Source: Gammaproteobacteria bacterium
GTDB taxonomy: Bacteria; Pseudomonadota; Gammaproteobacteria; Steroidobacterales; Woeseiaceae
Direction of reading: 5' to 3'
NCBI GenBank assembly: GCA_029863305.1
Contig: JAOTVR010000025.1
Span: forward strand, 1-41,506
Length of the DNA stretch: 41,506 nt
Under the pieces are notes generated by a model. It was not told the DNA's origin. It ran no database searches and worked only from the letters and a program-made list of their open reading frames with translations. Both the position numbers and the translations under genes were made by a program. Each line of letters opens with the position of its first letter. The first letter of the stretch is position 1. Positions 7,396 through 41,506 of the stretch are shown one piece after another.

Positions 7396-7702
7396 AATCA
7401 GTCCGGAACAACTGCTCAGTCAGATCCGATCGTTGGGGCGCGATCTGCAGACAACGGGCCCGATGGAGTCTGCGCCGACTACGGACTTCAGCGACATGTT
7501 GAAGACGTCGCTCAATGCGGTCAATGAAACGCAGCAAAAGGCCCGGGAGCTGAAGGTGGGATTCGAATACGGCACCGGTGAAGCGAGTCTCGCCGAGGTC
7601 ATGATCGCTGCGCAAAAGGCCGATCTGTCTTTTCGCGCGGTGACTGAAGTGCGTAACAAACTGGTCACAGCCTACCAGGACATCATGAACATGCCGGTCT
7701 GA
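7388..7702 (+). CDS. fliE: Flagellar hook-basal body protein FliE
   Basis: Links the MS ring to the proximal rod and is exported early. It has 104 residues, the normal FliE length. The C-terminal two thirds carry the family pattern: FSDMLKTSLNAVNETQQKA, then GEASLAEVMIAAQKADLSF and LVTAYQDIMNMPV, the typical YQEIM.M.V ending. The ATG at 7388 overlaps the flrC stop by 8 bases. Upstream in-frame codons would extend into flrC and are not supported. I see no separate promoter, so it is probably read from the flrB sigma-54 promoter or from a site inside flrC. Confidence 0.95.
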   Translation: MNEISPEQLLSQIRSLGRDLQTTGPMESAPTTDFSDMLKTSLNAVNETQQKARELKVGFEYGTGEASLAEVMIAAQKADLSFRAVTEVRNKLVTAYQDIMNMPV

Positions 7703-7739
7703 CGATCGTCGGCAATTACTCGGGAATGCGTAAATAGCT

Positions 7740-9377: not shown

Positions 9378-10377
9378 CAAGGATCGTCAGATGAACGGCA
9401 CCCAGAGGGCGGCGTTACTGTTGATGACTCTCGGTGAACAGGAAGCCGCCGAAGTTTTGAAGTATATGGGTGCAAAAGAGGTGCAGAACCTCGGCACGGC
9501 GATGGCGTCACTGAAAAATGTGACCCGCGACGAAGCAGGCAATGTGCTTGATATTTTTATCACGGATGTCGAAGAACAGACGGCGTTCGGCGTGGACACC
9601 GAAGGCTACGTCCGAAAACTGCTTGGCAATGCATTCGGCGAAAGCAAGGCGGAGGCGTTTCTGGATCGCATCATGATTGGTGAGGACGCCAAAGGGCTTG
9701 ATGCGCTCAAATGGATGAGTTCGCGCGAGGTGGCTAATATCGTTGAAGATGAGCATCCTCAGATTATTGCGATCGTCGTCGCCTATCTGGATAGTGCGCA
9801 GGCCGCCGAGGTGATCGAGTTGCTTCCCGAGGAAACACGCCACGACATCGTCATGCGCATCGCGCGCTTGAGTGACGTGCAGCAGAGTGCCCTCGCGGAG
9901 ATCGAGCATCTTATCGCCAGCAAATCGGAACAATCGAGCCAGGGCTTGACGCGCAAGGTCGGTGGCGACAAAGTCGCCGCCGAGATCATCAACAACCTCA
10001 AGCCGGAACGCGGCGACGAAGTTCTCGAGCAGATAAGAGAAAAGAACGAAGAACTCTCGATGCGCATTCAGGAAATGATGTTTGTCTTCGAGACCCTGCT
10101 CAAAGTCGACGATCGCGGCATTCAGTCGCTATTGCGCGAGATTTCCAACGACCTCCTGGTGGTCGCGCTGAAAGGCTGCGATCCGGCGATCAGCGACAAG
10201 ATTCTGAACAACATGTCGAAACGTGCCGGTACGTTGCTGCGTGAAGACATGGAGGTGAAGGGACCGATGAAGCTCAGTGAGGTCGAGGCCGCGCAAAAGG
10301 AAATTCTGGACGTTGCACGACGACTCGCGGAATCCGGCGATATTGATCTTGGCCAGGGCGGTGAGGAGTATGTCTGA
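9370..10377 (+). CDS. fliG: Flagellar motor switch protein FliG
   Basis: Rotor protein that couples stator force to rotation and sits on the FliF tail. The 335 residues match family length. Seen are the N-terminal NGTQRAALLLMTLGEQEAA, the EHPQ motif (DEHPQIIAIVVAYLD) and the C-terminal torque helix with charged residues (DDRGIQSLLREISNDLLVVALKG). The last residues, DLGQGGEEYV, resemble the usual Gly-Glu-rich end. An alternative start at ATG 9391 would remove seven residues. It overlaps fliF upstream and fliH downstream, so stoichiometry is probably set by coupled translation. Confidence 0.97.
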   Translation: MSDKDRQMNGTQRAALLLMTLGEQEAAEVLKYMGAKEVQNLGTAMASLKNVTRDEAGNVLDIFITDVEEQTAFGVDTEGYVRKLLGNAFGESKAEAFLDRIMIGEDAKGLDALKWMSSREVANIVEDEHPQIIAIVVAYLDSAQAAEVIELLPEETRHDIVMRIARLSDVQQSALAEIEHLIASKSEQSSQGLTRKVGGDKVAAEIINNLKPERGDEVLEQIREKNEELSMRIQEMMFVFETLLKVDDRGIQSLLREISNDLLVVALKGCDPAISDKILNNMSKRAGTLLREDMEVKGPMKLSEVEAAQKEILDVARRLAESGDIDLGQGGEEYV

Positions 10378-23144: not shown

Positions 23145-24012
23145 TCAATCACAGGTCGACAACCTGGAGCATTTCATGAATCGCGGACGGGTGGATGTGC
23201 TCGCTGTATGCAGCGGCAAAGGCGGGGTCGGTAAGACCAATGTGGCGGTGAATCTCGCTATCGCAATGGGCGAAATGCAACGCAAGGTCTGTCTGCTTGA
23301 TGCGGATGTGAGCCTCGCCAACGTCGATGTATTGCTGGGACTGCAACCGCGCTTCAATCTGTCGCATGTCGTTCGTGGTGAGGTGGATTTGGCAAGCACG
23401 GTCCTGAGTGGGCCGAACGACGTGCAGATCATTCCGGCATCATCGGGTAATTTTGACCTGACGGATCTTCCGGCCATCTCGCAGGCGGCGATCATTCATG
23501 GTTTTGGTGAACTTTCCGAGCCGCCCGATGTGCTGTTCGTTGATACGGCTGCCGGCATCTCGCCAACCGTTGCCCGATTCGTGCAGGCGGCGCAGCATGC
23601 CGTGGTCGTTGTCTGCGACGAACCCGCTTCACTGACAGATGCGTACGCGCTGATCAAGGTATTCAGCTCACACTACGGAATATCCCGATTTCAAATCGTC
23701 ACGAATCAGAGTGCGACAGCTGCGGCAGGCCGCGCCCTGTTTAGCAAACTCGCACGTGTCACGGACTCGTATCTGGATGTCGTCTTACATCATCTCGGTG
23801 ATGTCCCCCACGACTCCTACCTTGTTAAGGCAGTACAGGAACAACGTGCCGTTGTTGCCGCGTACCCACGAAGCCCGGCTGGCGCCGCGTTCCGGACAAT
23901 CGCCAGGCGTATTGATGGTCTCCCGGCAACCAGAGATTCGAGTGGTGGAATAGAGTTTTTCTTCGAGCGGCTAATGATGGCCAATCAGCAAGGCAGAGGG
24001 ATGGTTGCATGA
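23137..24012 (+). CDS. flhG: MinD-like ATPase FlhG/FleN (flagellar number control)
   Basis: Limits flagellar number, antagonising FlhF and the master regulator FleQ/FlrA. It has 291 residues. The deviant Walker A CSGKGGVGKTN sits at about 25-35, the LLDADVSLANVDVLLGL switch follows, then VDTAAGI and VVCDEPASLTDAYALIKV. The end GGIEFFFERLM matches FleN. The start is ATG 23137 because AGGTGAG lies at 23122-23128; an in-frame TTG at 23131 is too close. It overlaps flhF by 8 bases and fliA by 4. Confidence 0.95.
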   Translation: MRSQSQVDNLEHFMNRGRVDVLAVCSGKGGVGKTNVAVNLAIAMGEMQRKVCLLDADVSLANVDVLLGLQPRFNLSHVVRGEVDLASTVLSGPNDVQIIPASSGNFDLTDLPAISQAAIIHGFGELSEPPDVLFVDTAAGISPTVARFVQAAQHAVVVVCDEPASLTDAYALIKVFSSHYGISRFQIVTNQSATAAAGRALFSKLARVTDSYLDVVLHHLGDVPHDSYLVKAVQEQRAVVAAYPRSPAGAAFRTIARRIDGLPATRDSSGGIEFFFERLMMANQQGRGMVA

Positions 24013-24728
24013 ACACCTACAGCAATGTTGCAGCGAGCAAAAATTACTCGAGCGAAGATCTGGTTACGCAGAATATCGCTCTGGTGAAACGTATCGCACA
24101 GCATATGATCGCGAGGCTGCCGTCGACCGTTGATATCGATGATCTGATGCAGTCCGGCATGGTTGGCTTACTTGAGGCCGCCAACAACTTCGATCCGGCA
24201 CGTGGAGCCAGTTTCGAAACCTATGCCGGTATTCGCATCCGTGGCGCGATGCTCGATGACATTCGCAAGCACGACTGGACACCAAGGTCTGTGCATCACA
24301 AGTATCGCAAGGTGGCAGAGGCAATTAACGCAATTGAGGGCGAGACCGGCAGAGCCGCGAAGTCTTCGGAAATTGCAGCCCGGCTCGAAATATCGGTAGA
24401 CGAGTATCACAAAATTCTTGCCGACAGCTCTAGTAGCAGATTATTCAGTCTCGACGAGACGCTCGACGAACCTACACTGCATCGAACGCCGCCGAAATCC
24501 GATTCGGCAACTCCCGAACAAGAGTTATTCCACGCGCAATTCCGCAGCAGACTGGCGGAGCAAATCAACCAACTACCAGAGCGCGAGCGACTGGTCCTGT
24601 CGCTCTACTATGAGCGCGAATTGAACTTGAAAGAAATTGGTCAGGTGCTCGACGTCACCGAATCCAGAGTTTGTCAGATCCACGGCCAGGCGATGGTTCG
24701 GCTACGCGGCGTCGTGGCGAAATGGTGA
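24009..24728 (+). CDS. fliA: Flagellar sigma factor FliA (sigma-28)
   Basis: Directs RNA polymerase to late flagellar genes once the anti-sigma factor FlgM is exported. The 239 residues contain sigma regions 2 (VKRIAQHMIARLPSTVDIDDLMQSGMVGL, SFETYAGIRIRGAMLDDIR), 3 and 4 (LPERERLVLSLYYERELNLKEIG, VTESRVCQIHGQAM). All parts are present. No flgM is in the window. Four sequences matching the 8-11-8 sigma-28 promoter pattern lie downstream (28571, 29830, 32495, 32534), so the probable targets are nearby. Confidence 0.97.
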   Translation: MNTYSNVAASKNYSSEDLVTQNIALVKRIAQHMIARLPSTVDIDDLMQSGMVGLLEAANNFDPARGASFETYAGIRIRGAMLDDIRKHDWTPRSVHHKYRKVAEAINAIEGETGRAAKSSEIAARLEISVDEYHKILADSSSSRLFSLDETLDEPTLHRTPPKSDSATPEQELFHAQFRSRLAEQINQLPERERLVLSLYYERELNLKEIGQVLDVTESRVCQIHGQAMVRLRGVVAKW

Positions 24729-28540: not shown

Positions 28541-28567
28541 GGTATGCACCGAACGTCCCTGCATACC
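28541..28567 (-). promoter_or_regulatory. Leader hairpin at the 5' end of pomAB-pilZ mRNA
   Basis: GGTATGCA (28541-28548) and TGCATACC (28560-28567) are perfect 8-bp arms around an 11-base loop. The predicted sigma-28 start point is near 28564, so the stem would form at the very 5' end of the transcript, 9 bases before the ribosome site. It could protect the mRNA or be an operator. Confidence 0.55.
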
Positions 28568-28570
28568 TGT

Positions 28571-28597
28571 GTATCGGCCGATCGGACCGGGTCTTTA
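28571..28597 (-). promoter_or_regulatory. Sigma-28 (FliA) promoter of pomAB-pilZ
   Basis: On the minus strand the sequence reads TAAAGACC-N11-GCCGATAC, against the E. coli consensus TAAAGTTT-N11-GCCGATAA. The -35 core is perfect, -10 matches 7 of 8 and the spacing is exact. Confidence 0.8.
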
Positions 28598-28633: not shown

Positions 28634-29767
28634 TTATCGGGCCGCTTCGTCGTCCGGATGCAGTAGCAGTCTGGCGGCATTTCGACCCGCCGCTTTGGCC
28701 TGGTACAGGGCGCGATCGGCCCGCTTGACCAATGTTTCGACGCTGTCACTACTGTGCACTTCGGTATATCCGGCCGAGCAGGAAACAACGGCTCCGTCGG
28801 CGCTGTCGGCTATCCTGATGTTGCCGGCCAGTTCGAGGAATCGTTCGATCAGCCGTGTTGCGTTTTGCGCGGATGTGTCGTTCAGAATCATGGCAAATTC
28901 GTCGCCACCATAACGGGCTACAAGGTCGCCTTTTCGGATGAACGTCCTCTCCAGACACTCGCCGACGGCGCGTAGCGCCTGGTCGCCTGCGGCATGCCCG
29001 AAGTTATCGTTAACATGCTTGAAATTGTCCAGATCTACCATGACGACTGTTACCGGCTGGTTGAGAACAAAGTGCAGGTTCAGGCTCTGTTCGATCGCCG
29101 TGTCGAAAGCGCCACGATTGTAGGCGTCGGTCAGCGGGTCGCGCTTCATCTCTTCACGGGCGGCGACCAGATCCTGACGCAAATTGGACATGCGGCTGTT
29201 CAATTCTCCCAGCTGCGCTTCGTAGGCTTTCTTCTGTTCGACAAAAGTCTCGGTGACCTGCTGGACGGCAAGCGACAGAGCCGCCTTGATGTCCGGTAAG
29301 TCACCGTTACTGACCGCATCCTCCACGATTTTGAGACTCACCCGAACATGGCTTTCTGTGTTTTCGTCACGCTCACCGATCTGGCGCAAGCCGACGATGA
29401 GATCCTCGACCACTTCGCGGTAGTCGTGCAAACGCTCGGTAACAAACGTCTTCTCCGCTCTGCGACGATCGACGAAGAAGCGACGAACTTGCGACCATTC
29501 GCGGCTGCCATCAGTCGTCTGTGGAATATCAAACGCAGGGACTGCCGCGCCGTTTTCGACATGCCCGGCGAACTGGCTGCACTTCATATGAAAAATAGAC
29601 GGGTCGACCTCCTGGTCGATCGGAAACGCTTCGTCACCCATTATGCGTATGACACTTCCCAGCGTATCGAGCGCACCGTCGGCGAGTGAGCTATAGCTCC
29701 TCTTCGTTCCGTCAAATTCATCGGCTTCACCGGTCTTGTTGCCGATGAACCTTGATACCAATCGCAT
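28634..29767 (-). CDS. Diguanylate cyclase (GGDEF) with intact inhibitory site
   Basis: Makes c-di-GMP from two GTP. It has 377 residues. The N-terminal 170 residues are a soluble region of unknown fold, and about 170-208 is a coiled coil ending in DPLTDAYNRGAF, the typical GGDEF entry. The catalytic motif is GGDEF at 287-291. The product-inhibition I-site RKGD (278-281) sits exactly five residues before it, so feedback inhibition is expected. The C-terminal RADRALYQAKAAGRN is also standard. There is no membrane segment, so it is cytoplasmic. A sigma-28-like site precedes it at 29830-29856. It lies upstream of and parallel to pomA. Confidence 0.94.
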   Translation of the reverse strand: MRLVSRFIGNKTGEADEFDGTKRSYSSLADGALDTLGSVIRIMGDEAFPIDQEVDPSIFHMKCSQFAGHVENGAAVPAFDIPQTTDGSREWSQVRRFFVDRRRAEKTFVTERLHDYREVVEDLIVGLRQIGERDENTESHVRVSLKIVEDAVSNGDLPDIKAALSLAVQQVTETFVEQKKAYEAQLGELNSRMSNLRQDLVAAREEMKRDPLTDAYNRGAFDTAIEQSLNLHFVLNQPVTVVMVDLDNFKHVNDNFGHAAGDQALRAVGECLERTFIRKGDLVARYGGDEFAMILNDTSAQNATRLIERFLELAGNIRIADSADGAVVSCSAGYTEVHSSDSVETLVKRADRALYQAKAAGRNAARLLLHPDDEAAR

Positions 29768-29829: not shown

Positions 29830-29856
29830 TTATCGCCAAAAACGCCGAAACCTTGA
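29830..29856 (-). promoter_or_regulatory. Sigma-28-like promoter of the GGDEF gene
   Basis: The minus strand reads TCAAGGTT-N11-GGCGATAA, with the correct spacing: 6 of 8 at -35 and 7 of 8 at -10. The predicted leader is about 55 bases. It is weaker than the pomA copy. Confidence 0.5.
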
Positions 29857-30028: not shown

Positions 30029-30298
30029 ATGACCGGCGGCGACTACGTCATCCTCGTGGTGAATCGCACCAAGGTCGAGGCTGAGAATCTCAAGGAACTC
30101 ATTGAGTTCATGGATGCGCCCAACGTACGCACAAGCGAGCCTGGTGACTGGCGCCGGGCGCTCGGTGACAGCCGCCTCGAGGCGCTGTTTGTCGGGCCGG
30201 ATCTTTCCTCTGACGAAGTCAACGTGTTGCTCGCCGATATCGGCGAGTTCGACCCGAACGTGCCCATCGTCATGATGAATGACGGAGCTGCTGCGTGA
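30029..30298 (+). CDS. FleQ-like regulator, N-terminal receiver fragment (split gene)
   Basis: An 89-residue fragment that reads as the first two thirds of the FleQ receiver-like domain: [21 protein letters not shown], then [17 protein letters not shown] and [13 protein letters not shown]. The last stretch lines up with the LPILLIG strand of P. aeruginosa FleQ as I recall it. It ends at TGA 30296-30298, right after beta-4, where an intact receiver should continue. The continuation is present in the next frame (30295 onward). The acidic pair and phospho-Asp are absent, as in other FleQ proteins. The ribosome site before ATG 30029 is poor. Read it together with the next entry. Confidence 0.7.
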
Positions 30299-31440
30299 TT
30301 CACCCCGAACTGCAACGGCAATATCCATGGGCCCGGTTTCACTCGCTCGAGTATCCGATTCGCCTCGATGCGCTCAGCGCAGTTCTTGACGAGATTCATG
30401 CGTCTCACGGCCCGGCGCGGAGCGACGTGCGTGCGGCGAAAATTGTGCGGCTCATCGGCGACAGTGCCGATATGCGAACCGTGCGTCGACTTGTGGAGCA
30501 AGTTGCGCCGTCATCAGCAACCGTGCTGATCAACGGCGAATCGGGCACCGGTAAGGAGGTTGTCGCACGTCAGATTCATGAGAAGTCCGGTCGCAAGGGC
30601 CCGTTTGTCGCGGTAAATTGCGGCGCCATACCCGAGCACCTGCTGGAGAGCGAGTTGTTTGGCCATGAGCGCGGCGCTTTTACAGGCGCCGTCGCGGCAC
30701 GAGCGGGTCGATTCGAGTTGGCGCAGGGTGGCACATTCTTCCTCGACGAAATCGGTGATATGCCGGCGGTCATGCAGGTCAAACTTCTGCGTGTGCTGGA
30801 AGAGCGGACAATCGAGCGGGTCGGTGGGAGTAAGAGCATTCCCGTGGATGTGCGTTTGATCGCAGCAACGCATCGCGACCTGCCGAAACGCATCGAGGAC
30901 GGCAAGTTCCGTGAGGACCTGTACTACCGCTTGAGCGTGTTTCCAATCGATATATCGCCATTGCGGGACCGGCCGGAAGATGTGCCGCCGCTGGCTGCCG
31001 AGTTCATACGGCGGATGCACAGCGACCAGGCTGTCAGCCTGAGGATTTCCGAGAATGCCATGCGTATCCTTCAGGACTATGCATGGCCGGGCAATGTCCG
31101 CGAACTTGCCAATCTGATCGAACGCCTGCTGGTTATACGTCCAAACGGCGTGGTTGCCGCAAGAGATTTGCCGTGGCCGCTCGTCGCATCCGGGCACGGC
31201 GAGGACGGCCTGCCCGATGTCGTCAATGCGGCGTTTGTAGCCGACTCAGCTGATCAGCGTCTTGCATTGCCGGCGGAGGGCTTCGACCTGAAGGAATACC
31301 TTGCCGGAATCGAGCGCGACATGATCGACAACGCCCTTTGCGAAGCGGATGGTGTGGTACAACGAGCTGCAGAATTGCTGGGTATTGGCCGGACGACGCT
31401 AGTTGAAAAAATCCGCCGCTACGAAATGAAACGCGACTAG
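30295..31440 (+). CDS. FleQ-like sigma-54 activator, rest of split gene
   Basis: A second FleQ/FlrA paralogue, 381 residues from GTG 30295. The first 37 residues ([20 protein letters not shown]) are the missing end of the receiver domain. Then come AAA+ with Walker A GESGTGKE (81-88), GAFTGA (127-132) and Walker B FFLDEIGD (148-155), and the Fis-type [21 protein letters not shown]. The C-terminal [16 protein letters not shown] closely resembles P. aeruginosa FleQ, more so than FlrA at 3388. The GTGA overlap with the fragment means a -1 frame relation: one missing base, a real frameshift, or two coupled proteins. The core ATPase and DNA-binding parts are intact, so a receiver-less activator could function. 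Confidence 0.9.
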
Positions 31441-32471: not shown

Positions 32472-32494
32472 TCACAGTACGGTGATACTTATAT

Positions 32495-32521
32495 GTAACG
32501 GCTCCGGGGCCATTATCTTTA
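32495..32521 (-). promoter_or_regulatory. Sigma-28-like promoter of the channel gene
   Basis: The minus strand reads TAAAGATA-N11-GCCGTTAC, with exact 8-11-8 spacing, perfect TAAAG and GCCG and 6 of 8 overall at -10. The start point would be near 32488, 17 bases before GTG 32471. Its -35 is one arm of an inverted repeat shared with the divergent pilus promoter. Confidence 0.55.
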
Positions 32522-32533
32522 GAGCCCTGGCGC

Positions 32534-32560
32534 TAAAGATTTCCGTCAAATTGGCGACAA
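32534..32560 (+). promoter_or_regulatory. Sigma-28-like promoter of the MSHA-like pilus operon
   Basis: TAAAGATT-N11-GGCGACAA has exact spacing, a perfect TAAAG core and 6 of 8 at -10. The start point would be near 32567, 32 bases before ATG 32599 and upstream of its ribosome site. The two -35 boxes (32514-32521 and 32534-32541) are back to back and create the perfect 8-bp inverted repeat ATCTTTAG-N10-CTAAAGAT. Confidence 0.55.
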
Positions 32561-32598
32561 CTAAGGGGTATCGTATTGTTCATAAAGGGCCTCAACCA

Positions 32599-34293
32599 AT
32601 GTCGCCAGGTTCACTCCGGCAAAAAGCGCGAATCGATCGTGATGCTATGGGCAACCGGCACGAACGGCGCGGCGCTTTTTACCCAGCTTTCCTCCTGCCG
32701 CTGCTGCTTGGTGCATGTGCGAACACGCAAACTGTGGATCTGTCCTCGGGTCATCTGCTCCATGAATTGCCGCCCGCTGCCCAAGAGGCACCGATCGTGG
32801 TGGATGTGCCGCCGGCGCCAGAACCGGAGAAATTGCCGGCAGTTGAGACCTATACGGTCGTCGTAAAGGAATTACCCGTTGTTGACCTGTTGTTCTCGCT
32901 TGCACGCGATGCGGGTCTCGATATCGACTTGCAGGCGTCCGCCGACAAGACGGTCACACTGAATGCTGTCAACCGGCCCTTGCAGGAGATTCTGAGTCGA
33001 ATCGCCGAGCAGGCGCAGCTGCGTTATCAGTTGCGTGGTTCGAATTTGATTGTTCAGGACGATCTGCCTTACTGGCACAACTATCTGGTCGACTACGTCA
33101 ACATTGCCCGGTCAAGCGTCGGCGAAGTTGGCGTGGCGACGCAAATCGCGACGTCGGGCGGCAGCGTTGGCGAGCAATCCGGTCAGCGAGGCGACGGGCA
33201 GGGTAATACTTCAAAAACGACGGTGAAAAGTAACTCAGAAAACGACTTCTGGGCTGCACTCGAGGAAGGACTGACATCGATTATTGGAGCCATACGCGAT
33301 CCGGCCGCCACCTTCCCGCAGGACAACGATCCGGTCATTACCAACCCGATGTCCAGCGTTGTGACCGTATTCGGAACACAAAAGGCGCACGCCCGTGTGC
33401 AGCGGTATCTCGACAGAATCATGATGAACTCGCAACGCCAGGTACTCATCGAAATGACGATTGTGGAGGTTGAGCTGAGTGACAACTTTCAGGCAGGGGT
33501 CGATTGGCAGAAGATTTCGGAGTCGGCCAGCGGCAACAATGATTTCTCGGTGCAGACCGATTTGCTGGGTGGCGATCTCAACCTGGCGCCCTTCGTGTCA
33601 CTGAGCTTCGACGATATTGACGTTTTTGGCAGCAACATCGCAGCGGCCGTCAGAATGCTGCAGCAATTTGGCGACACCAAAGTGCTGTCTAGCCCGAAAA
33701 TCATGGCTTTGAATAATCAGACGGCATTGCTCAAGGTCGTCAACGAAAAAGTATTCTTTACCGTGGAACTTGATGTGCGCGAAGCAACAGCGGATATCCC
33801 TGAGCGACGAACGTTCACGAGTGAACTGCATACCGTCCCGGTCGGCCTGGTGATGAGCGTCACACCGCAAATCAGCGAGGGCGGTTTCGTCAGCATCAAC
33901 ATTCGTCCGACGATCAGCCGGATAACGGGATTCGCCGTTGATCCGGCACCGCGTCTGGCCGGCGCTGATTTTGACAATCTGATCCCGGAAATTCAGGTCC
34001 GAGAGATTGAATCGCTGCTGCAAGTCATGGACGGACGGACGGTCGTGTTGGGCGGCCTCATGCAGAACGAGCAGGTGAGTGCCAAAGATGGCGTGCCCGG
34101 CCTCTCCCGAATTCCCGGAGTTGGCAGGTTATTTTCCTACACGCGTGACAATCTGATTAAGACTGAGCTCGTAATCTTCCTGAAACCGACGATCATCAGG
34201 AACGGCACGCCGCCAGCGGGTAGTCCGGAAATCGGTGATTACTACGAGATTCCGGTGGGCCCTCAGGCTATCAGTCAGACCGACTATCGATAA
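32599..34293 (+). CDS. mshL: MSHA-like pilus secretin (outer-membrane lipoprotein)
   Basis: Outer-membrane pore for the pilus. It has 564 residues from ATG 32599, which has AAGGG at 32585-32589. ATG 32647 is an alternative with no ribosome site but a shorter n-region. A lipoprotein signal ends in LLLGAC. An N0/STN-like domain follows (VKELPVVDLLFSLARDAGLDIDL), then a low-complexity linker and the secretin domain: QVLIEMTIVEVELSDNFQAG, TKVLSSPKIMALNNQTALL, VGLVMSVTPQISEGGFVSI and the closing VLGGLMQNE with GLSRIPGVGRLFSY. Upstream in-frame codons reach into the channel gene and are rejected. Confidence 0.93.
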   Translation: MSPGSLRQKARIDRDAMGNRHERRGAFYPAFLLPLLLGACANTQTVDLSSGHLLHELPPAAQEAPIVVDVPPAPEPEKLPAVETYTVVVKELPVVDLLFSLARDAGLDIDLQASADKTVTLNAVNRPLQEILSRIAEQAQLRYQLRGSNLIVQDDLPYWHNYLVDYVNIARSSVGEVGVATQIATSGGSVGEQSGQRGDGQGNTSKTTVKSNSENDFWAALEEGLTSIIGAIRDPAATFPQDNDPVITNPMSSVVTVFGTQKAHARVQRYLDRIMMNSQRQVLIEMTIVEVELSDNFQAGVDWQKISESASGNNDFSVQTDLLGGDLNLAPFVSLSFDDIDVFGSNIAAAVRMLQQFGDTKVLSSPKIMALNNQTALLKVVNEKVFFTVELDVREATADIPERRTFTSELHTVPVGLVMSVTPQISEGGFVSINIRPTISRITGFAVDPAPRLAGADFDNLIPEIQVREIESLLQVMDGRTVVLGGLMQNEQVSAKDGVPGLSRIPGVGRLFSYTRDNLIKTELVIFLKPTIIRNGTPPAGSPEIGDYYEIPVGPQAISQTDYR

Positions 34294-34304: not shown

Positions 34305-35030
34305 ATGAAAAGTCCCCTCGTAGAAGCACTTCGGCAGGCAAGCGACAGCAAACCACCAACGGAACAGGAAGCGCCGGTGGCTGAAGAAGGCGCGGTCGCG
34401 GAGCCGGTCGAGGCGGCTAAAGCCGAACAGTCGTCGGACGTCGACGACTTGCAGCTGCTGCACGCGACAGGTGTGTTGCAAGATCACGGCCCTGGCATAT
34501 TGCCGATCGACGGTCCCGGCATTTTGCCGATCGACGGTCCTGGCATATTGCCAATCAATGATCGCAGCGGTCCTTCCGCGGTTGATACTGATGCCGAACT
34601 GTACGAAACCATGGCCCTGCAGGTCGCAGCCGACGAGCCGGGCAGCCCGGCAATTGCTGAGCAATCTGTGGACACTGCGCCCTATCCGGCTGTATCGCAT
34701 TCGGACGGGCGCATGGGGATTTCCCGACCTGGCATTTATGCACCGTTAATGTGCGTCGCACTGGCGGCCACTGCGGCCGCGATAAATTTCGCATATCAAA
34801 GTGCCGGGGGCGGCTACGACAATTCCGAGCTGACCTCGCTATCGTCACAAACAGGGGCATCTGACAAAGAGGACGAGATGGGAAGTGCCGGATCGGATCG
34901 ACCCATGAACCGGTTCGAACTAATCGTCGGACCGCAAACGGTGTCTCCTGACAATGCCCGGATTGAATCAGCACGCTTGCAGTCTGCGACTGACGCGCTG
35001 TTACCTGACACGGAGAATCTGGGTCGATGA
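34305..35030 (+). CDS. Uncharacterised pilus-locus membrane protein with octapeptide repeats
   Basis: A 241-residue protein at the position of MshM/MshN in Vibrio, but with neither an AAA domain nor tetratricopeptide repeats. The N-terminal 50 residues are acidic and Ala/Pro/Glu-rich. Residues 62-85 are three copies of the octapeptide GPGILPI(D/N). A single membrane segment lies at about 144-164 (IYAPLMCVALAATAAAINFA), with a Ser/Gly/Asp-rich periplasmic C terminus. This predicts an inner-membrane protein with a cytoplasmic repeat region. It may link secretin or ATPase to the platform. It overlaps mshE by four bases and is probably co-translated. I do not recognise a family. Confidence 0.8.
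   Translation: MKSPLVEALRQASDSKPPTEQEAPVAEEGAVAEPVEAAKAEQSSDVDDLQLLHATGVLQDHGPGILPIDGPGILPIDGPGILPINDRSGPSAVDTDAELYETMALQVAADEPGSPAIAEQSVDTAPYPAVSHSDGRMGISRPGIYAPLMCVALAATAAAINFAYQSAGGGYDNSELTSLSSQTGASDKEDEMGSAGSDRPMNRFELIVGPQTVSPDNARIESARLQSATDALLPDTENLGR
34488..34559 (+). repeat. 24-bp tandem repeat, three copies
   Basis: Three consecutive 24-base units encode GPGILPID, GPGILPID and GPGILPIN. The first two differ by a few silent bases, and the third has diverged at its end. Such in-frame tandem repeats can vary in copy number between strains. Confidence 0.95.
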
Positions 35031-36754
35031 CGACAATCACGGTACGCAAGCTGACACCCGAAGAGCCTGCTTTGCCGCTCGGCGAACGCCTGATAGCGGC
35101 GGGCTTGATAAGTCGGGACCAATTGCACGTCGCTCTCAAAGAGCAGAGTCGCCGTGATGAGCCGCTGGGCCGCATTCTGGTAAAACTCGGCCTGATTTCC
35201 GAAGGCATGTTACGCGACACGCTTGGGGAGTCGCTCGGGCACGACAGTATCGACCTGTCGACAGTGATTCCGGATCCGGACGCGTTGCAGATGGTGCCCA
35301 AGAATATTGCGCGGCGTTACAGCATGCTGCCAATTAACTTCGACAAGAATGAAAAAGTCCTGACGCTGGCGATGGCGGATACCTTCAACGTTGTCGCGAT
35401 GGACCAGATTGCCGCGCTGCTTGGCGCTGGTGTCGGCATCGCCACGCTCGTTGCGGGGGAGGCCGAAATCGAAGCGGCGATCGAGCAGTTTTACAAATTC
35501 GAATTGTCGATTCAGGGAATCCTGCACGAAATCGATACGGGCGAGGTCGATCAGCTCAATCGCGCCGTTGAAAATGAAGAATACAATCATCCGCTGATTC
35601 GTCTCGTCGACGCTATTCTTGCAGATGCCGTAAAGCGCGACACATCGGACATCCATCTGGAGCCCGAGGAAGGTTTCCTGCGCGTTCGTTATCGCATCGA
35701 TGGCGTGCTGCGACAGGTCATGGCATTACATCGGAGCTACTGGCCAGGAATGGTCGTGCGGCTCAAGGTCATGGCCAAAATGAACATCGCGGAAACGCGC
35801 GCACCCCAGGATGGCAGAATTTCACTGACACTGGCAGGCAGACCTATCGACTTTCGCGTTGCCTGCCAACAAACGACGCATGGCGAGAACTTCGTACTGC
35901 GTGTCCTCGACCGACAAAAGGGTATCGTGCCGCTCGAGAAACTGAATCTCGAGAAAAATACACTGATGTCGCTGCAGGTCATGATGGCGCGGCCTGAGGG
36001 TATCATCCTCGTTACCGGACCAACCGGCAGCGGCAAGACGACAACCCTGTATTCGATGCTCAATTGGCGGAATGACGAGGCAGTGAACATCATGACGCTG
36101 GAGGACCCGGTCGAATACCCAATGAACATGATCCGCCAGACTTCGCTGAATGAGGCTGCGAAGCTCGACTTCGCAAACGGCATTCGCTCAATGATGAGGC
36201 AGGATCCGGATGTCATTCTCGTCGGCGAAATTCGTGATGAAGAGACAGCGGAAATGGCGTTTCGCGCGGCGATGACAGGTCATCAGGTGTTTTCGACGCT
36301 GCATACCAATTCCGCGCTGGGCGCGATACCGAGATTGATCGATATCGGCGTCAAGCCGCAAATCATGGCAGGCAACATTATCGGCATCGTCGCGCAACGG
36401 CTGGTGCGCCGCCTCTGCCGGCACTGCAAACAGGCGCATGCGCCTGATGAGACGGAGCGCCGATTGCTGGGGATTTCGAGCAACAAGCCGATCTTGCTGT
36501 ACAAGGAGCAGGGCTGCGATGCCTGCAATTTCATGGGTTACAAGGGTCGTCTCGCCGTTATCGAAGTCCTGAAAATGAACGAAGGGATGGACGAGATGAT
36601 TGCACGCGACGCGACGCGCAGAGAAATGCACGAAGCGGCGGTCAAGGCCGGCTTTAAAGACCTTGCTGAAGACGCCGTGCGTCACGTACTAAACGGGATG
36701 ACGAGTCTCTCCGAGATATCACGGGTCGTGGATCTGACCGCAAGGGTGGGCTGA
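35027..36754 (+). CDS. mshE: Pilus extension ATPase with c-di-GMP-binding-type N domain
   Basis: Hexameric assembly ATPase. The 575 residues begin with a duplicated MshEN pattern (about 17-70): PLGERLIAAGLISRDQL and PLGRILVKLGLISEGML, the motif that binds c-di-GMP in Vibrio MshE. The leading Arg of the usual RLG is Pro in both halves here. Walker A is GPTGSGKTT (331-339). Walker B and the Asp/His boxes are in EDPVEYPMNM, QDPDVILVGEIRD and TGHQVFSTLHTN. A zinc-type CRHC and CDAC pair lies near residues 465 and 504. This supports a c-di-GMP link to pilus extension, pending the Arg change. Confidence 0.94.
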   Translation: MTTITVRKLTPEEPALPLGERLIAAGLISRDQLHVALKEQSRRDEPLGRILVKLGLISEGMLRDTLGESLGHDSIDLSTVIPDPDALQMVPKNIARRYSMLPINFDKNEKVLTLAMADTFNVVAMDQIAALLGAGVGIATLVAGEAEIEAAIEQFYKFELSIQGILHEIDTGEVDQLNRAVENEEYNHPLIRLVDAILADAVKRDTSDIHLEPEEGFLRVRYRIDGVLRQVMALHRSYWPGMVVRLKVMAKMNIAETRAPQDGRISLTLAGRPIDFRVACQQTTHGENFVLRVLDRQKGIVPLEKLNLEKNTLMSLQVMMARPEGIILVTGPTGSGKTTTLYSMLNWRNDEAVNIMTLEDPVEYPMNMIRQTSLNEAAKLDFANGIRSMMRQDPDVILVGEIRDEETAEMAFRAAMTGHQVFSTLHTNSALGAIPRLIDIGVKPQIMAGNIIGIVAQRLVRRLCRHCKQAHAPDETERRLLGISSNKPILLYKEQGCDACNFMGYKGRLAVIEVLKMNEGMDEMIARDATRREMHEAAVKAGFKDLAEDAVRHVLNGMTSLSEISRVVDLTARVG

Positions 36755-36758
36755 TACG

Positions 36759-37961
36759 ATGCCGTCGTATAGCTACAGGGCCGTCGATCCGAGTGGTTGT
36801 GTCATCGAGGGCAACCTTGAGGCCAATAGTGTGCATGCGCTGGAAACACAGTTACGGCAGGCGGATATCGAATTGTTGCGCTGTGCAGAACGCAGTAGCC
36901 GGCGCTTCGGCATCAAGGGTGGCGTAAAGCGTAAGGATCTGATTGGTTTTTGTTATCACATGGAGCAAATGACCCGCGCAGGGCTGCCGATTCTCGAGGC
37001 ATTGGCCGATCTGCGCGACAGTGTCGACAATCCGCTGTTCAAGGAAGTCATTGGTAACCTGATCTCGGCTGTGGAAGTCGGCAAGACCTTGTCGCAGGCC
37101 CTGGCGGAGTATCCACAGGTTTTTGACGATGTCTTTGTCAGTCTGATTGCAGTTGGCGAAGAATCGGGCGAGTTGCCGGATGTGCTGCTGAAACTGACCG
37201 AATCGCTGAAGTGGCAGGATGAACTGATCGCCAAAGCGAAGACCGTCATAATCTATCCGGCATTCGTCGGAGTTGTAGTCCTCGGCGTCATGTTATTCAT
37301 GATGCTCTATGTCGTACCGCAAATGGTCGAGTTTATTCGCGAAATGGGCGAGGACTTGCCACTACACACGCGTGCGCTCATTGGTTTTTCCAATTTTCTT
37401 ATCAACCATTGGTGGTGGGCTGTGCCAATGCCATTCGTGTTGCTACTGGCCATCAGGCTGCAGGCACGAAGAGATGATGCGTTCCGGCTTGTGGTGGATG
37501 GCTGGAAACTCAAAGCCTGGTATATCGGTCCGGTATTGTCGAAGATCGTGCTGAGTCGGTTCGCAAGTTATTTTGCACTTTGTTATGGCGCTGGACTCGA
37601 TGTTATTTCTTCGCTGAAGATCAGTGAAAATATCGCTGGCAACGCGGTAATTCGCAAAGGCATACAGCAGATCTCCGCCGGAATTGCAGATGGCAATTCG
37701 TTGAGCGACAGCATTGAAGCGACAAATTTGTTTCCGGCGCTTGTTACTCGAATGGTCAAGATGGGCGAGTCGACAGGCGCCCTGGATAACGCACTGCTCA
37801 ATGTCAGCTATTTCTATGACCGTGAGGTAAACGAGTCGATAGATCGCCTCAAAGCAATGATCGAGCCGGCGATGACTGTCGTGTTGGGCGCGATCATGGG
37901 GTGGATCATGCTATCGGTACTCGGACCCATCTACGAAACAATCAGCAGCATAGGCATCTGA
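36759..37961 (+). CDS. mshG: Pilus assembly platform protein (GspF/PilC type)
   Basis: Inner-membrane platform that receives pilins and is turned by the ATPase. The 400 residues have the duplicated GspF domain: ITFCYH-like LIGFCYHMEQMTRAGLPILEAL in the first copy and SRFASYFALCYGAGLDVISSL in the second. Membrane segments lie near 165-190, 210-230 and 375-395. MPSYSYRAVDPSGCVIEG is the usual start. It follows mshE by four bases, as in MSHA loci. Confidence 0.94.
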   Translation: MPSYSYRAVDPSGCVIEGNLEANSVHALETQLRQADIELLRCAERSSRRFGIKGGVKRKDLIGFCYHMEQMTRAGLPILEALADLRDSVDNPLFKEVIGNLISAVEVGKTLSQALAEYPQVFDDVFVSLIAVGEESGELPDVLLKLTESLKWQDELIAKAKTVIIYPAFVGVVVLGVMLFMMLYVVPQMVEFIREMGEDLPLHTRALIGFSNFLINHWWWAVPMPFVLLLAIRLQARRDDAFRLVVDGWKLKAWYIGPVLSKIVLSRFASYFALCYGAGLDVISSLKISENIAGNAVIRKGIQQISAGIADGNSLSDSIEATNLFPALVTRMVKMGESTGALDNALLNVSYFYDREVNESIDRLKAMIEPAMTVVLGAIMGWIMLSVLGPIYETISSIGI

Positions 37962-37962
37962 G

Positions 37963-39555
37963 ATGGTGGCGAGGCGCGCATTCTATGTCACGCAGGACTC
38001 TCTTGCGATATGGCACCACGACAAGTCGGAGTTGCAAGAGGTCGAAGTGTTCCCCGCCGACGATACCGGTCTGCGGAGATTCGACGCTTATCTGGCAGCA
38101 AACCATGCGCAACCGTGCTTCGTCTTAATGGATGTCATCGAAGAAGAATTTGCCCCTGATACGATACCCAGGCTTGGAATGCGTGACCGTGCGGCGCTCA
38201 CACAACGCAGGTTACAACGCAAATTCCCGGGTACACCTTACCGACTGCCTGTGTATCAGGGACGCAAATCACGCAGTTCTGATGAAGCCGTTGTTGTACA
38301 CAGCGCGATTTCAAATAACGAGTTACTGGATCCGTGGCTGCAGATTATCTTACGACATGAGGTAGCACTGACTGGCATATTCTCTGTGCCACTGCTGGCT
38401 CCGGATTTGCTTGGCTGTCTGCGCAAGACGGCATTGCCCGCCTTGCTGATCACTCAGCATCAGAGCGACAGATTGCGCCAGGCCTTCATGCAGAATGGCC
38501 AGGTACAGAGTGCGCGCCTGTCACAGTGCATGCCGATATCAGACGAAGAATACCCACAATTTGTGCTGACAGAGATCGGCCGCAGCCGCCGCTACCTCGA
38601 ACGTACTCGTCTGCTCAGCAGCATGGAACAACTTGACGTCTACATTGTCGCCGACTCAAATCTGGCAGAACGGATACTCGCATGCGCACAGAGCGATAGC
38701 CCTTTACAGATTCACTTCATTAAGCCGGAAGCCGCTGCGAAACGGGTCGGCATTCGTACAGTACCCAGACCGGACAATCTTGAAACCCTGTATCTGGCCA
38801 CATCATTTCGCCGGCGGCCAAAGCACAGTTACGCCGTTTCCGGCGAGGAACGTTTCTGGCGCATGCGACGATTGCGCGGCGCTATCATCGGTGTTGCCCT
38901 CAGCGTCGCTGCAGCATGCTCTGTCGCATCGGGTCTGCACCTGAGCGAAGCGTGGCTGATAAAACGACAATCGGCCGAAATTGACAGGCAATATTCGCAA
39001 CTGAGTGAAGCGTTTCGCCGTGAGAATGAGCGTCTCGACCCAATCGAAGCAGACTCTCACGAGATGAAACTCGCGGTTGATACGGGAGACTTCATCTTGT
39101 CGAATCGCCTGCCGGTACCCTGGGTAATGCAGCAACTCGGATTCGTGATGGGGAATTACCCTGATGTAAGAATCCTGACGCTGAACTGGTCTGCAGAATC
39201 GGCCGCGTTGGATACTCCGTCGCGTCGGCAGCGAGGTGACGAACCGATGCCGGTGCCTGTGCCCGGCGTTACCGCAATCAATGCCAGCGTGATCGCTGAT
39301 ATTGCGCCGTTTGACGGCGATATGCGCAAGGCTTTCGCACGCATCGACGAACTCGTCGAAGAACTGGAGGAACGAACCGCTTTCAGCCATGTTGTCGCGG
39401 TAGAGTATCCTCTCGACGCTCGGCCGCAATCGTCCATCTCCGGTGAAATAGTCGGCAAACATGAAAATGGTACTGCCCGTTTTCGGCTGCAACTGAGATT
39501 CCCGATAGAACCGGCAACAGAAAATACGTCAGAGGCAAGCGATGAGTCGGTTTAG
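37963..39555 (+). CDS. PilM/PilN-like pilus assembly protein (MshI position)
   Basis: A 530-residue protein with a long N-terminal cytoplasmic region (about 1-290), one membrane segment at about 305-325 (AIIGVALSVAAACSVASGL), a coiled coil and a periplasmic PilN-like domain. The N part resembles a conserved group found in beta- and gammaproteobacterial pilus clusters (FYVTQDSLAIWHHD, VLMDVIEEEFAPDTIP, GTPYRLPVYQGR, IGRSRRYLERTRLL), which I recognise from memory but which has no established function. It may be a degenerate PilM/GspL fold without clear ATP-binding motifs. It follows mshG by one base and overlaps the next gene by 14 bases, so the order is platform, PilM/N, PilO, PilP-like. Confidence 0.8.
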   Translation: MVARRAFYVTQDSLAIWHHDKSELQEVEVFPADDTGLRRFDAYLAANHAQPCFVLMDVIEEEFAPDTIPRLGMRDRAALTQRRLQRKFPGTPYRLPVYQGRKSRSSDEAVVVHSAISNNELLDPWLQIILRHEVALTGIFSVPLLAPDLLGCLRKTALPALLITQHQSDRLRQAFMQNGQVQSARLSQCMPISDEEYPQFVLTEIGRSRRYLERTRLLSSMEQLDVYIVADSNLAERILACAQSDSPLQIHFIKPEAAAKRVGIRTVPRPDNLETLYLATSFRRRPKHSYAVSGEERFWRMRRLRGAIIGVALSVAAACSVASGLHLSEAWLIKRQSAEIDRQYSQLSEAFRRENERLDPIEADSHEMKLAVDTGDFILSNRLPVPWVMQQLGFVMGNYPDVRILTLNWSAESAALDTPSRRQRGDEPMPVPVPGVTAINASVIADIAPFDGDMRKAFARIDELVEELEERTAFSHVVAVEYPLDARPQSSISGEIVGKHENGTARFRLQLRFPIEPATENTSEASDESV

Positions 39556-40171
39556 CCTTGACTGGCGCTTCTTGCTGCGCCACACCTTACTGCCGGCAGC
39601 GACGGCTGGTGTTGCGATCATCTTGCTGGGAAGCAGTATCTGGTTTCGTGGCGAACAGTCGCTGCTTCTCGAGCAGGTGAGTGCTAATCAAGCGGCCGTC
39701 CACAGAGACTATGAAGCATTGGTCTATCGTCGCAGGCTTGTCGAACGATATCACCGGCGATACGAGTCATTCCGTGAGCTCGGATTCATAGGATTGGAGA
39801 GTCGGCTCGATTGGGTCGAGACCTTGCGCAAGACTTCGGTTGCGCTGACATTGCCGCACGTGAGCTACGCCATTGAGCCGCAGTTGCAGGTTGTCGCGCC
39901 TGTCGAATCGATCATGGCGGGAGAGGATATTCAGATTCACCTGAGTCGCTTGTCGTTGGAAGCTGGCCTGGTACATGAGTTCGATCTGCTGCGATTCGTG
40001 GACGAGTTACAGCGAAATGCGCCCGGCCTGATCAAGATTGATAGCTGCGATATGACGTGGCAGGGCGAGCGCGGAAGATCGCTCAGTGTCGGCGCGAACA
40101 TCCTGGCGAAATGCTCAATACATATTTTCAGCGTCATTACGTCCGACGTTTTCGATGGGGCAGCGACATGA
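39542..40171 (+). CDS. PilO-like pilus alignment protein (MshJ position)
   Basis: A 209-residue inner-membrane protein with one N-terminal membrane helix (about 16-34, LPAATAGVAIILLGSSIWF), a coiled coil (about 40-75) and a periplasmic domain with LRFVDELQRNAPGLIKIDSC. The helix, coiled coil and ferredoxin-like layout is that of PilO/MshJ. The sequence is otherwise weakly conserved. The ATG overlaps the upstream gene by 14 bases and the stop overlaps the downstream start by four. Confidence 0.78.
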   Translation: MSRFSLDWRFLLRHTLLPAATAGVAIILLGSSIWFRGEQSLLLEQVSANQAAVHRDYEALVYRRRLVERYHRRYESFRELGFIGLESRLDWVETLRKTSVALTLPHVSYAIEPQLQVVAPVESIMAGEDIQIHLSRLSLEAGLVHEFDLLRFVDELQRNAPGLIKIDSCDMTWQGERGRSLSVGANILAKCSIHIFSVITSDVFDGAAT

Positions 40172-40602
40172 TGAAAAAGACGCTGCTTTGGTCGTTGATT
40201 GTGTTGCTTCATCCTCTGGTATCAGCCGCCGAAGATAATGCTGTATATGAATCATTGCGCGGGGTCCGGATAGGCCGTGTGTTTTTTACGCAGATTGAGC
40301 GCGACTTGCTGGATGCCCGGCGACTTATCGAGCCATCCGGAGGCGCTGTCGAAGAAGTGAATCGCGATGCTCCGGTAAGAACCAGGCCACGCGCCTCTGC
40401 CGGCTACATCATCGGGCGTCAGGGTCGCTCACAGGTCTGGAAAGACGGAGATTTCGTGGAAATCAGCAGGGACCCGGAAATCTCCGTGTCCTTTCCCGGG
40501 GACGTGAAGATCACTCGCCATGCTGCAAGGGACAAGCCCACCAACAGCAAGGAAAGGGTTCTTACTCGCAGCGAGCAGCTTGCGGAAGATGATGATGGCT
40601 AG
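40168..40602 (+). CDS. Small periplasmic pilus protein (MshK/PilP position)
   Basis: A 144-residue secreted protein. The signal peptide is MKKTLLWSLIVLLHPLVSAAE. The mature part contains IGRVFFTQIERDLLDARR, then a spaced SAGYIIGRQGRSQVWKDGD, a pattern I recognise from small proteins in beta- and gammaproteobacterial pilus clusters (FF.p.ER..LD..R and G.v.R..GrS.vW.nG). Start ATG 40168 overlaps the PilO-like stop; ATG 40171 is equally possible. The role is likely that of MshK or PilP, bridging the PilN/O dimer and the secretin. Confidence 0.78.
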   Translation: MMKKTLLWSLIVLLHPLVSAAEDNAVYESLRGVRIGRVFFTQIERDLLDARRLIEPSGGAVEEVNRDAPVRTRPRASAGYIIGRQGRSQVWKDGDFVEISRDPEISVSFPGDVKITRHAARDKPTNSKERVLTRSEQLAEDDDG

Positions 40603-41506
40603 TGTCGGCAGGCAACGCGGTGCCGCATTACTGATCATGATGCTCCTTGTCATCGTTGCGGCGACGGCAACGCTCGTTGCGCGTCTGAATATGAATGATG
40701 CGCGTGCCCAACAACTGACCGAAACAAAGGCAGCGCTGGCGGTCGCGCGTCGAGCGCTTCTGGACTATGCGGCGGTTTATCCGGATCTTGCCCCGGGTTC
40801 GGCAGCGGTCTTGCCCTGCCCGGATCTCGATAGTGCCGGTGCTTACCCTGAAGGAGCCGCGCACTCTGATGCGTGCGGCGTTAGAGGCGAGACGGTGATG
40901 GGTCGCCTGCCCTGGCGCACTCTCGGAATCAAACCACCGAAAGACGGGGGTGGCGCCTGTCTCTGGTACGTGGTATCCGGGGGCTACAAGGACGCTGGCA
41001 GCGCAACGGCCGAGATGATCAACCCGGACGTGAACGGCCAGTTGCAGTTGCATGGCATCGAGGCGGCGAGTGTCATCGCAGGCATGCAGGCAGATGACCG
41101 TCCGGTCGCGATGATTATCGCACCCATGCAGGGCATCAATGGACAGTCGCGTGCAGCGCCGGCCGCCGCAGGTGGGCAATGCAGCACGAGTTTTGACGCC
41201 GCGGACTTTCTGGAGCTCGACGCGCTATCCGGAATTTCAAACGCGACTGTGTCCGGATCAGCCGATGTCGTCGAAACTTTCGCGACTGCAGCAGGTTACA
41301 ACGCGGCGCACAATGATCGTATCGCGATAATTACGCGTGCCGATCTGGCAAGAGTCGTTGAGAACCGCCACGATTTCGACAACAACATGCGGGCCCTTGG
41401 TCTGGCAGTTGCCGCTTGCGTCGCGGATTACGCACGCAACAATCCAGGCGGTAGTCCTCCGGGTGGCGGTCCTCCGGGTGGCGGTCCTCCCGGTGGCGGT
41501 CCTCCG
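40595..41506 (+). CDS. Pilin-like membrane-anchored protein, open at window end
   Basis: Open from ATG 40595 to the last base, 304 residues seen. The start is preferred over ATG 40589 and 40592 because GGAAG lies at 40584-40588. It overlaps the previous gene by 8 bases. The N terminus is a basic stretch followed by GAALLIMMLLVIVAATA, like the hydrophobic alpha-1 of pilin-like or PilX proteins but without a clear prepilin peptidase site. Conserved-looking pieces are ALLDYAAVYPD, VLPCPDLDSAG, GRLPWRTLGI and CLWYVVSGGYKD, which I recognise from uncharacterised proteins near pili. Five Cys are likely disulfide-bonded. The end is a Pro-Gly repeat. A minor pseudopilin or adhesin is possible. Confidence 0.8.
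   Translation, partial: MASVGRQRGAALLIMMLLVIVAATATLVARLNMNDARAQQLTETKAALAVARRALLDYAAVYPDLAPGSAAVLPCPDLDSAGAYPEGAAHSDACGVRGETVMGRLPWRTLGIKPPKDGGGACLWYVVSGGYKDAGSATAEMINPDVNGQLQLHGIEAASVIAGMQADDRPVAMIIAPMQGINGQSRAAPAAAGGQCSTSFDAADFLELDALSGISNATVSGSADVVETFATAAGYNAAHNDRIAIITRADLARVVENRHDFDNNMRALGLAVAACVADYARNNPGGSPPGGGPPGGGPPGGGPP
41447..41506 (+). repeat. 15-bp tandem repeat coding for Gly-Pro units
   Basis: Four successive 15-base units, consensus GGTGGCGGTCCTCCG, encode GG(S/G)PP. The array runs off the window, so the true copy number is unknown. It forms a flexible linker in the pilin-like protein. Confidence 0.95.

Follow-up and report, generated by a model that had tools for sequence, protein, structure and literature searches.

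The consensus promoter of the flagellar sigma factor σ28 (FliA) consists of a −35 box, TAAAG, and a −10 box, GCCGATAA, in an 8-11-8 frame, and under the FliA/FlgM checkpoint the class III genes wait until the hook is complete. To our knowledge, the regulation of MSHA-type pili is usually regarded as separate from that of flagella, with c-di-GMP linking the two systems afterwards, and voltage-gated K+ channels are not a class of gene usually assigned to the flagellar regulon.

Control of type IV filaments by sigma factors of the flagellar type is already in print. In Bdellovibrio, FliA control of a TAD (type IVb, Flp) pilus operon was shown with an E. coli reporter (PMC5430801; background in PMC3627812). 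In Rubrobacter, the FliA-family factor WhiG is associated with TAAA/GCCGATAA promoters, which occur within a type IV pilus cluster and also 5′ of genes for diguanylate cyclases/phosphodiesterases; the same source gives TAAA (−35) and GCCGATAA (−10) for FliA-family promoters and cites the zoospores of Actinoplanes, in which pili and flagella are both said to be under WhiG-like sigma factors (PMC8325347). The wait of class III genes for hook completion is stated in PMC13432727. In Vibrio cholerae, MshE is a c-di-GMP receptor, and loss of the stator lowers the amount of surface MSHA (PMC7098655). An rpoF (FliA) mutant of Acidithiobacillus caldus had a lower level of a potassium channel transcript, while type IV pilus genes went up (PMC6543871).

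Here we describe a gap in a flagellar cluster of the environmental family Woeseiaceae that, in all likelihood, holds two independent, divergent FliA promoters, one for an MSHA-type pilus operon and one for a Kv-type K+ channel, as part of a row of FliA promoters in that cluster. The switch for late flagellar genes would then very probably also activate the genes of an attachment pilus and of a potassium channel in this marine, mainly sea-floor family. As in Bdellovibrio, a flagellar sigma factor would drive a type IV filament operon, but the Bdellovibrio pilus is of the TAD type, in an obligate predator in which FliA is essential, whereas the operon considered here is of the MSHA type, belongs to a gammaproteobacterium and lies beside flagellar genes together with a K+ channel gene (PMC5430801). 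The likeness to Rubrobacter lies in such promoters at type IV pilus genes and diguanylate cyclase genes; Rubrobacter is, however, an actinobacterium with a c-di-GMP-dependent anti-sigma factor, RsiG, and the relevant passages of PMC8325347 mention neither an MSHA-type operon nor a K+ channel. The MSHA-type pilus with an MshE-type ATPase carrying a c-di-GMP motif is shared with V. cholerae, for which control via MshE and c-di-GMP was suggested and the relevant passages are silent on FliA promoters at msh genes (PMC7098655). As in A. caldus, a potassium channel gene would be linked to RpoF, but there the pilus genes rise in the mutant, and the relevant passages mention no promoter evidence (PMC6543871).

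A survey of the Woeseiaceae mentions flagella, twitching and tad genes, MSHA being absent from the text as available (PMC12175321), and the relevant passages of an Alteromonas paper hold no MSHA or FliA–pilus link (PMC5864184). No MSHA-type pilus under FliA was reported in the best-ranked literature matches, a set of titles, beginnings of abstracts and passages with subscription papers mostly outside it. We regard the MSHA-type pilus and the Kv-type channel as the new elements. The link between pilus and flagellum that we infer here would act at the level of transcription.

Gene Content of the Window and the Two Sites in the Gap

The window, i.e., the whole 41,506-nt stretch of DNA that was analyzed, is one whole contig of a draft genome of 4.25 Mb in 200 contigs. 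The gene order is flaG, fliD, flagellar export genes, flhA, fliA, PilZ, motB, motA, GGDEF, a σ54-type activator, the channel gene and the pilus operon, with fliA about 8 kb upstream of the gap between the channel gene and mshL (32472-32598, 127 bp). The features are as follows:

24009..24728, plus strand: fliA (σ28); NF005413, 291.5 bits (cut-off 201)
28571..28597, minus strand: FliA-type promoter of motA-motB-PilZ; TAAAG-N14-GCCGATAC
28634..29767, minus strand: diguanylate cyclase; PF00990, 1.3e-41, GGDEF motif intact, with an RxxD upstream (by eye)
29830..29856, minus strand: FliA-type promoter of the GGDEF gene; TCAAG-N14-GGCGATAA
31437..32471, minus strand: Kv-type K+ channel; PF00520 (Ion_trans), 1.8e-33
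32521-32495, minus strand: FliA-type promoter of the K+ channel gene; TAAAGATA-ATGGCCCCGGA-GCCGTTAC, with TAAAG at 32521-32517 and the −10 box GCCGTTAC at 32502-32495
32515..32540: 8-bp inverted repeat with arms ATCTTTAG (32515-32522) and CTAAAGAT (32533-32540) and a 10-bp loop (read by eye)
32534..32560, plus strand: FliA-type promoter of mshL; TAAAGATT-TCCGTCAAATT-GGCGACAA, with TAAAG at 32534-32538 and the −10 box GGCGACAA at 32553-32560
32599..34293, plus strand: mshL, MSHA-type pilus secretin; TIGR02519 (MSHA-specific secretin model), 261.1 bits (cut-off 250.2)
34305..35030, plus strand: variable membrane protein of the pilus operon, without a Pfam family
35027..36754, plus strand: mshE-like extension ATPase with a c-di-GMP-binding motif; T2SSE, MshEN (PF05157) and NF053729, 61.5 bits (cut-off 38)
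36759..37961, plus strand: mshG-like platform protein; PF00482, 1.9e-54
37963-39555, 39542-40171 and 40171-40602, plus strand: three operon genes, MshI/J/K-like by position only, with homologs at the same place in relatives

The channel protein has a TVGYGD filter and an Arg-rich S4 segment (both seen by eye), and its best match in the PDB was a Kv channel (E 1.8e-29); voltage gating and K+ selectivity are predicted. In the pilus operon, the variable protein carries a tandem GPGILPID repeat (window 34488-34560). Among the 25 families listed for the ATPase, none over its cut-off named the whole protein as MshE. The three genes at 37963..40602 gave a single weak and unrelated match in Pfam, and the first two of them gave none in NCBIfam. 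Two prepilins of a relative, G028, have N-methylation motifs and matched no MSHA-specific model. The σ54-type activator gene (30295-31440), flanked by the GGDEF and channel genes, encodes a protein without a Pfam receiver domain and recurs at this place in many relatives.

According to the preliminary description of this DNA, the 127-base gap holds two 8-11-8 matches to the FliA consensus, one on each strand, and that its back-to-back TAAAG boxes account for a perfect 8-bp inverted repeat. Both statements were borne out by the sequence: the spacing of each site is exact, and the repeat is present as a product of the two −35 boxes. Each site matches at 5/5 positions in TAAAG and at 6/8 in the −10 box, which departs from GCCGATAA at two positions, the same score on which the sites had been called moderate when taken singly. 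The start points predicted for the channel and mshL transcripts in the preliminary description are 32488 and 32567, respectively. A GGGGTA-like box, noticed by eye directly after the mshL −10 box (window 32561-32575), recurs in many relatives and could be part of the initially transcribed sequence or bind a regulator.

Conservation of the Putative mshL Promoter

Among named loci, 11 were matched by mshL. Nine of these were close (63-75%), seven from Woeseiaceae, one from Woeseia sp. and one from Gammaproteobacteria; the other two were from distant betaproteobacteria. Orthologs, defined by a match with E of 1e-60 or better, were present in 19 of the 107 genomes of the family, the window's genome (G000) included, and in five genera. 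Not counted among the 19 are G006, with an mshL fragment at a contig end, and G094, which has the channel and an mshL-side site and no mshL match.

In all 19 genomes, which are related, so that the counts are not independent (when the 19 upstream regions were compared, no more than two pairs gave long alignments above 83% identity), TAAAG lies exactly 14 nt 5′ of a −10 box with a G[GA]CGA core. This box reads G[GA]CGACAA in 16 genomes, GGCGATTA in one, GACGAATA (5/8) in one and GGCGACTT (4/8) in one; it thus agrees with the consensus at 6/8 positions or better in 17/19, the degraded boxes being those of G061 (5/8) and G080 (4/8). The mean frequency of the commonest base was 1.00 for TAAAG and 0.94 for the −10 box, and 0.56 for the 11-base spacer and 0.47 for the 5′ flank. 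The expectation that related genomes would keep the boxes while the spacers drift was therefore realized, in 19/19 genomes for mshL and in 18/19 for the channel. The reverse, genes retained with the pattern lost, was seen neither for mshL (19/19) nor for the channel beside mshL (18/18), two mshL −10 boxes being degraded. More distant MSHA-like secretins (28-40% identity; 16 loci, L040-L053, L128 and L129) yielded five matches, none of them 5′ of the secretin gene, a control limited by flanks of ≤1.5 kb in 14/16 loci and by the chance that the secretin is not the first gene. In 20-kb stretches from the flagellated G020 and G005, a pilus run of the distant type had no FliA-type site at its start.

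We considered the possibility that these are real FliA promoters, but that the pilus operon is transcribed mainly from another promoter, to which FliA adds little, leaving the pilus functionally outside the late programme. The off-consensus −10 boxes would fit such an arrangement, as would a weak σ70-like match in the gap region (8/12, spacing 17), the best matches in the other upstream regions having 7-9 of 12 (19/19). However, the σ70-like matches occur at varying positions in the 19 upstream regions, and the separate pilin gene stands behind a FliA-type site of its own in all 18 family genomes that have it, with the full GCCGATAA in eight. Two simple σ54 patterns had no match on the mshL strand in 19/19 regions. 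A main promoter of another kind is thus improbable, though worth keeping in mind. As individual candidates, σ54 was rejected on the missing mshL-strand matches (the other strand had one, in G061 only) and σ70 on the lack of a match at a fixed place.

The Putative Channel Promoter and the Independence of the Two Sites

The minus-strand site was found in 18 of the 19 mshL-ortholog genomes, with TCAAG in one of them (G030). In these 18, the frequency of the commonest base was 0.99 for the −35 box and 0.92 for the −10 box, which in most relatives reads GCCG[CT]TA[CAT], and 0.43 and 0.46 for the spacer and the flank. The genome without it, G021 (100% complete by a rounded estimate), has the plus site only; no channel gene lies between its activator gene and mshL, and no channel match was found genome-wide at E 1e-50. 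The channel site is kept in G114, G023, G013, G027 and G020, where mshL of this type was not found. Altogether, the site precedes 24/24 channel orthologs (59-72% identity, the window included), versus 0/5 paralogs (40-43% identity) with usable upstream DNA, a split made by identity and not by tree; the paralog L225, which has no upstream DNA, was excluded, and four further paralog places had no locus. The −35 boxes of the two sites are 11-112 bp apart across the relatives. By this variable distance, and by G021 and the channel-only genomes, the sites behave as separate promoters that each go with one of the two genes.

The same observations bear on the idea that a transcription factor regulates both genes by binding the inverted repeat as a palindromic operator, the likeness to FliA sites being secondary. 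A perfect 8-bp repeat between divergent genes, with a σ54-type activator gene adjoining the channel, would suit an operator, but the −35 boxes that make up its arms vary in distance as given above, and in G021 a single box pair is left, next to the gene that it would serve; on these two grounds the operator was rejected. Furthermore, the −10 boxes, which lie outside the repeat, are conserved, and both sites are kept in G024 and G019, where no activator gene occurs at that place. We consider an operator very unlikely.

On the strand divergent from the channel, G114 and G020 have no FliA-type site. In G027 and G013, a different gene, for a protein that appears sensor-like by eye, is divergent from the channel behind TAAAG-N14-GACGATAT (in G027, locus L246, the site is at 7784-7810 and the gene at 7871-9820; the G013 locus is L213). 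In G023 (L245), an MshE-like ATPase gene (7152-8876, 50% identity) follows TCAAG-N14-GCCGATAC at 7054-7080.

Other FliA-Type Sites and Matrix Scores

In 14 syntenic regions, FliA-type sites were found 5′ of motA in 13/13 covering regions, 5′ of the GGDEF gene in 13/14 (missed in G028; the gene start in G100 was extrapolated) and 5′ of the separate 206-residue prepilin gene in 10/10 covering regions. The start of motA given by the ORF finder is only 6 nt past its FliA-type site (window 28564-28597); the gene may in fact begin farther downstream, as the shorter MotA frames (254 aa) of several relatives suggest. The pilin gene of the window's genome is on another contig, C61, behind TAAAG-N14-GTCGATAA and after genes like those of the tail of the pilus operon, and C61 is likely to continue the window contig. 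A GC-rich tandem repeat, seen by eye inside a prepilin-like gene at the contig end (window 41440-41506), may have caused the contig break before C61. In a set of 13 flagellin-positive genomes, all but G005 (12/13) have T[AC]AAG-N14-[AC]CCGATAA 5′ of one flagellin gene. Elsewhere in G000, GCCGATAA FliA-type sites at L107 (C77:28344-28370), L030 (C105:12327-12353) and L115 (C80:7915-7941) precede or overlap the starts of genes that, judged by eye from their translations, encode a second GGDEF protein, a hook-filament-type protein and a flgA-like product, respectively.

The preliminary description had proposed a comparison with the fliC promoter by a position matrix, which had to be made with relatives, since the search gave no flagellin gene in the window's genome. 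The matrix was trained on 48 flagellin, motA, GGDEF and pilin sites, two of them the window's own motA and GGDEF sites, all picked with a consensus similar to the site definition. In the window, motA scored 21.0 and the GGDEF gene 19.9 (both training sites), mshL 19.1 and the channel 13.9 (both non-training), and the next position 8.7. Among 882,284 scored positions, every site that was entered, 13 for mshL and 13 for the channel, ranked in the top 76; the degraded G061 mshL site was left out of the entered sites and was absent from the best 140. Thus, by score, the sites resemble the promoters that the family has at its flagellin, motA, GGDEF and pilin genes, that of the channel being clearly weaker and, at 13.9, below every training site (minimum 18.4). 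The −10 boxes of the mshL and channel promoters differ from those of flagellin in a fixed way (GGCGACAA and GCCG[CT]TA[CAT]). Most relatives share these departures from the consensus position by position, so the two may be weak or tuned promoters. These deviations, which set the two promoters apart from those of flagellin, might also suggest that another sigma factor of the FliA/WhiG kind, and not the product of this fliA, reads the sites, but the same T[AC]AAG-N14 frame lies 5′ of motA and flagellin, and we consider this very unlikely.

As a site criterion we used T[AC]AAG-N14 followed by at least 6/8 of GCCGATAA. On both strands of the whole window, it gave four sites, those of motA, the GGDEF gene, the channel and mshL, each just 5′ of the gene start. 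Among 20000 dinucleotide shuffles of the gap, the plus site was matched in 27, the minus site in 19 and both in none. Over the 14 regions (441,506 bp) there were 72 sites, versus 23 in five shuffles per region combined; four of the 72 lie within mshG, and others are off the labelled genes (four in G028, two in G101), one of these being the flagellin promoter. Shorter patterns performed less well genome-wide: TAAAG-N14-GCCG had 48 matches versus 164 for the reversed control, i.e., it was rarer than the control, and TMAAG-N16-CGAYAA had a modest excess, with 14 versus 9 in the window's genome and 81 versus 45 over eight genomes. Pattern matching alone is therefore weak proof, and the case rests on conservation. 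Chance similarity of both sites, to which the moderate single sites and the poor enrichment of short patterns might point, was rejected as next to impossible on the shuffles, the conservation in 19 genomes and the contrast between channel orthologs and paralogs.

Proposed Working of the Promoter Row

The comparison supports the FliA control put forward in the preliminary description; that attachment becomes a late step of the motility programme, as it also proposed, is what we infer from such control. FliA dependence, timing and physiology at the channel and mshL promoters are likewise deduced from sequence. In the scheme that we propose, a row of FliA promoters would serve motAB-PilZ, the diguanylate cyclase, the channel, the pilus operon and, on the other contig, the separate pilin gene. 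FlgM would hold FliA until hook completion, and by this checkpoint pilus and channel expression would be late; flagellin, stator, cyclase, channel and pilus would then be expressed jointly. The co-expressed cyclase could supply c-di-GMP to MshE, leading to pilus extension on newly motile cells, while the channel might adjust or report the membrane potential, which is the least supported step. FliA control of the pilus would tie attachment to swimming.

A more far-reaching interpretation, which we offer as speculative, is that the row (stator and PilZ, cyclase, Kv channel, MSHA operon and pilin) constitutes a single surface-sensing module fired at hook completion, in which the channel would set or report the membrane potential under motor load, the cyclase would convert this signal into c-di-GMP and MshE would extend the pilus, and in which the position divergent from the channel would accommodate FliA-driven cargo, other lineages filling this slot with other signalling genes. 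If so, the newly flagellated cell would be armed to land. Taken separately, exchange of FliA-driven cargo may occur at this slot. The scheme provides a testable wiring for the preparation of a swimming cell to attach, and an entry to the role of a K+ channel in a flagellated cell.

Co-Occurrence with FlgM and Flagellin

FlgM is encoded in the window's genome on contig C80 (9083-9244) and was found in 18 of the 19 mshL-ortholog genomes, G080 being the exception. The flagellin search gave no gene in G000 or in G080, which is 72% complete. In G000, the flagellar cluster is present and its contig starts shortly before flaG, which points to an assembly gap as the likely cause of the missing flagellin. 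Across the family, flagellin was found in 35/107 genomes, comprising 17 of the 19 with an mshL ortholog versus 18 of the 88 without one (Fisher p 2e-8, relatedness ignored). In ten of the mshL-ortholog genomes, mshL and flagellin are on one contig, at a distance of about 31 to 36 kb.
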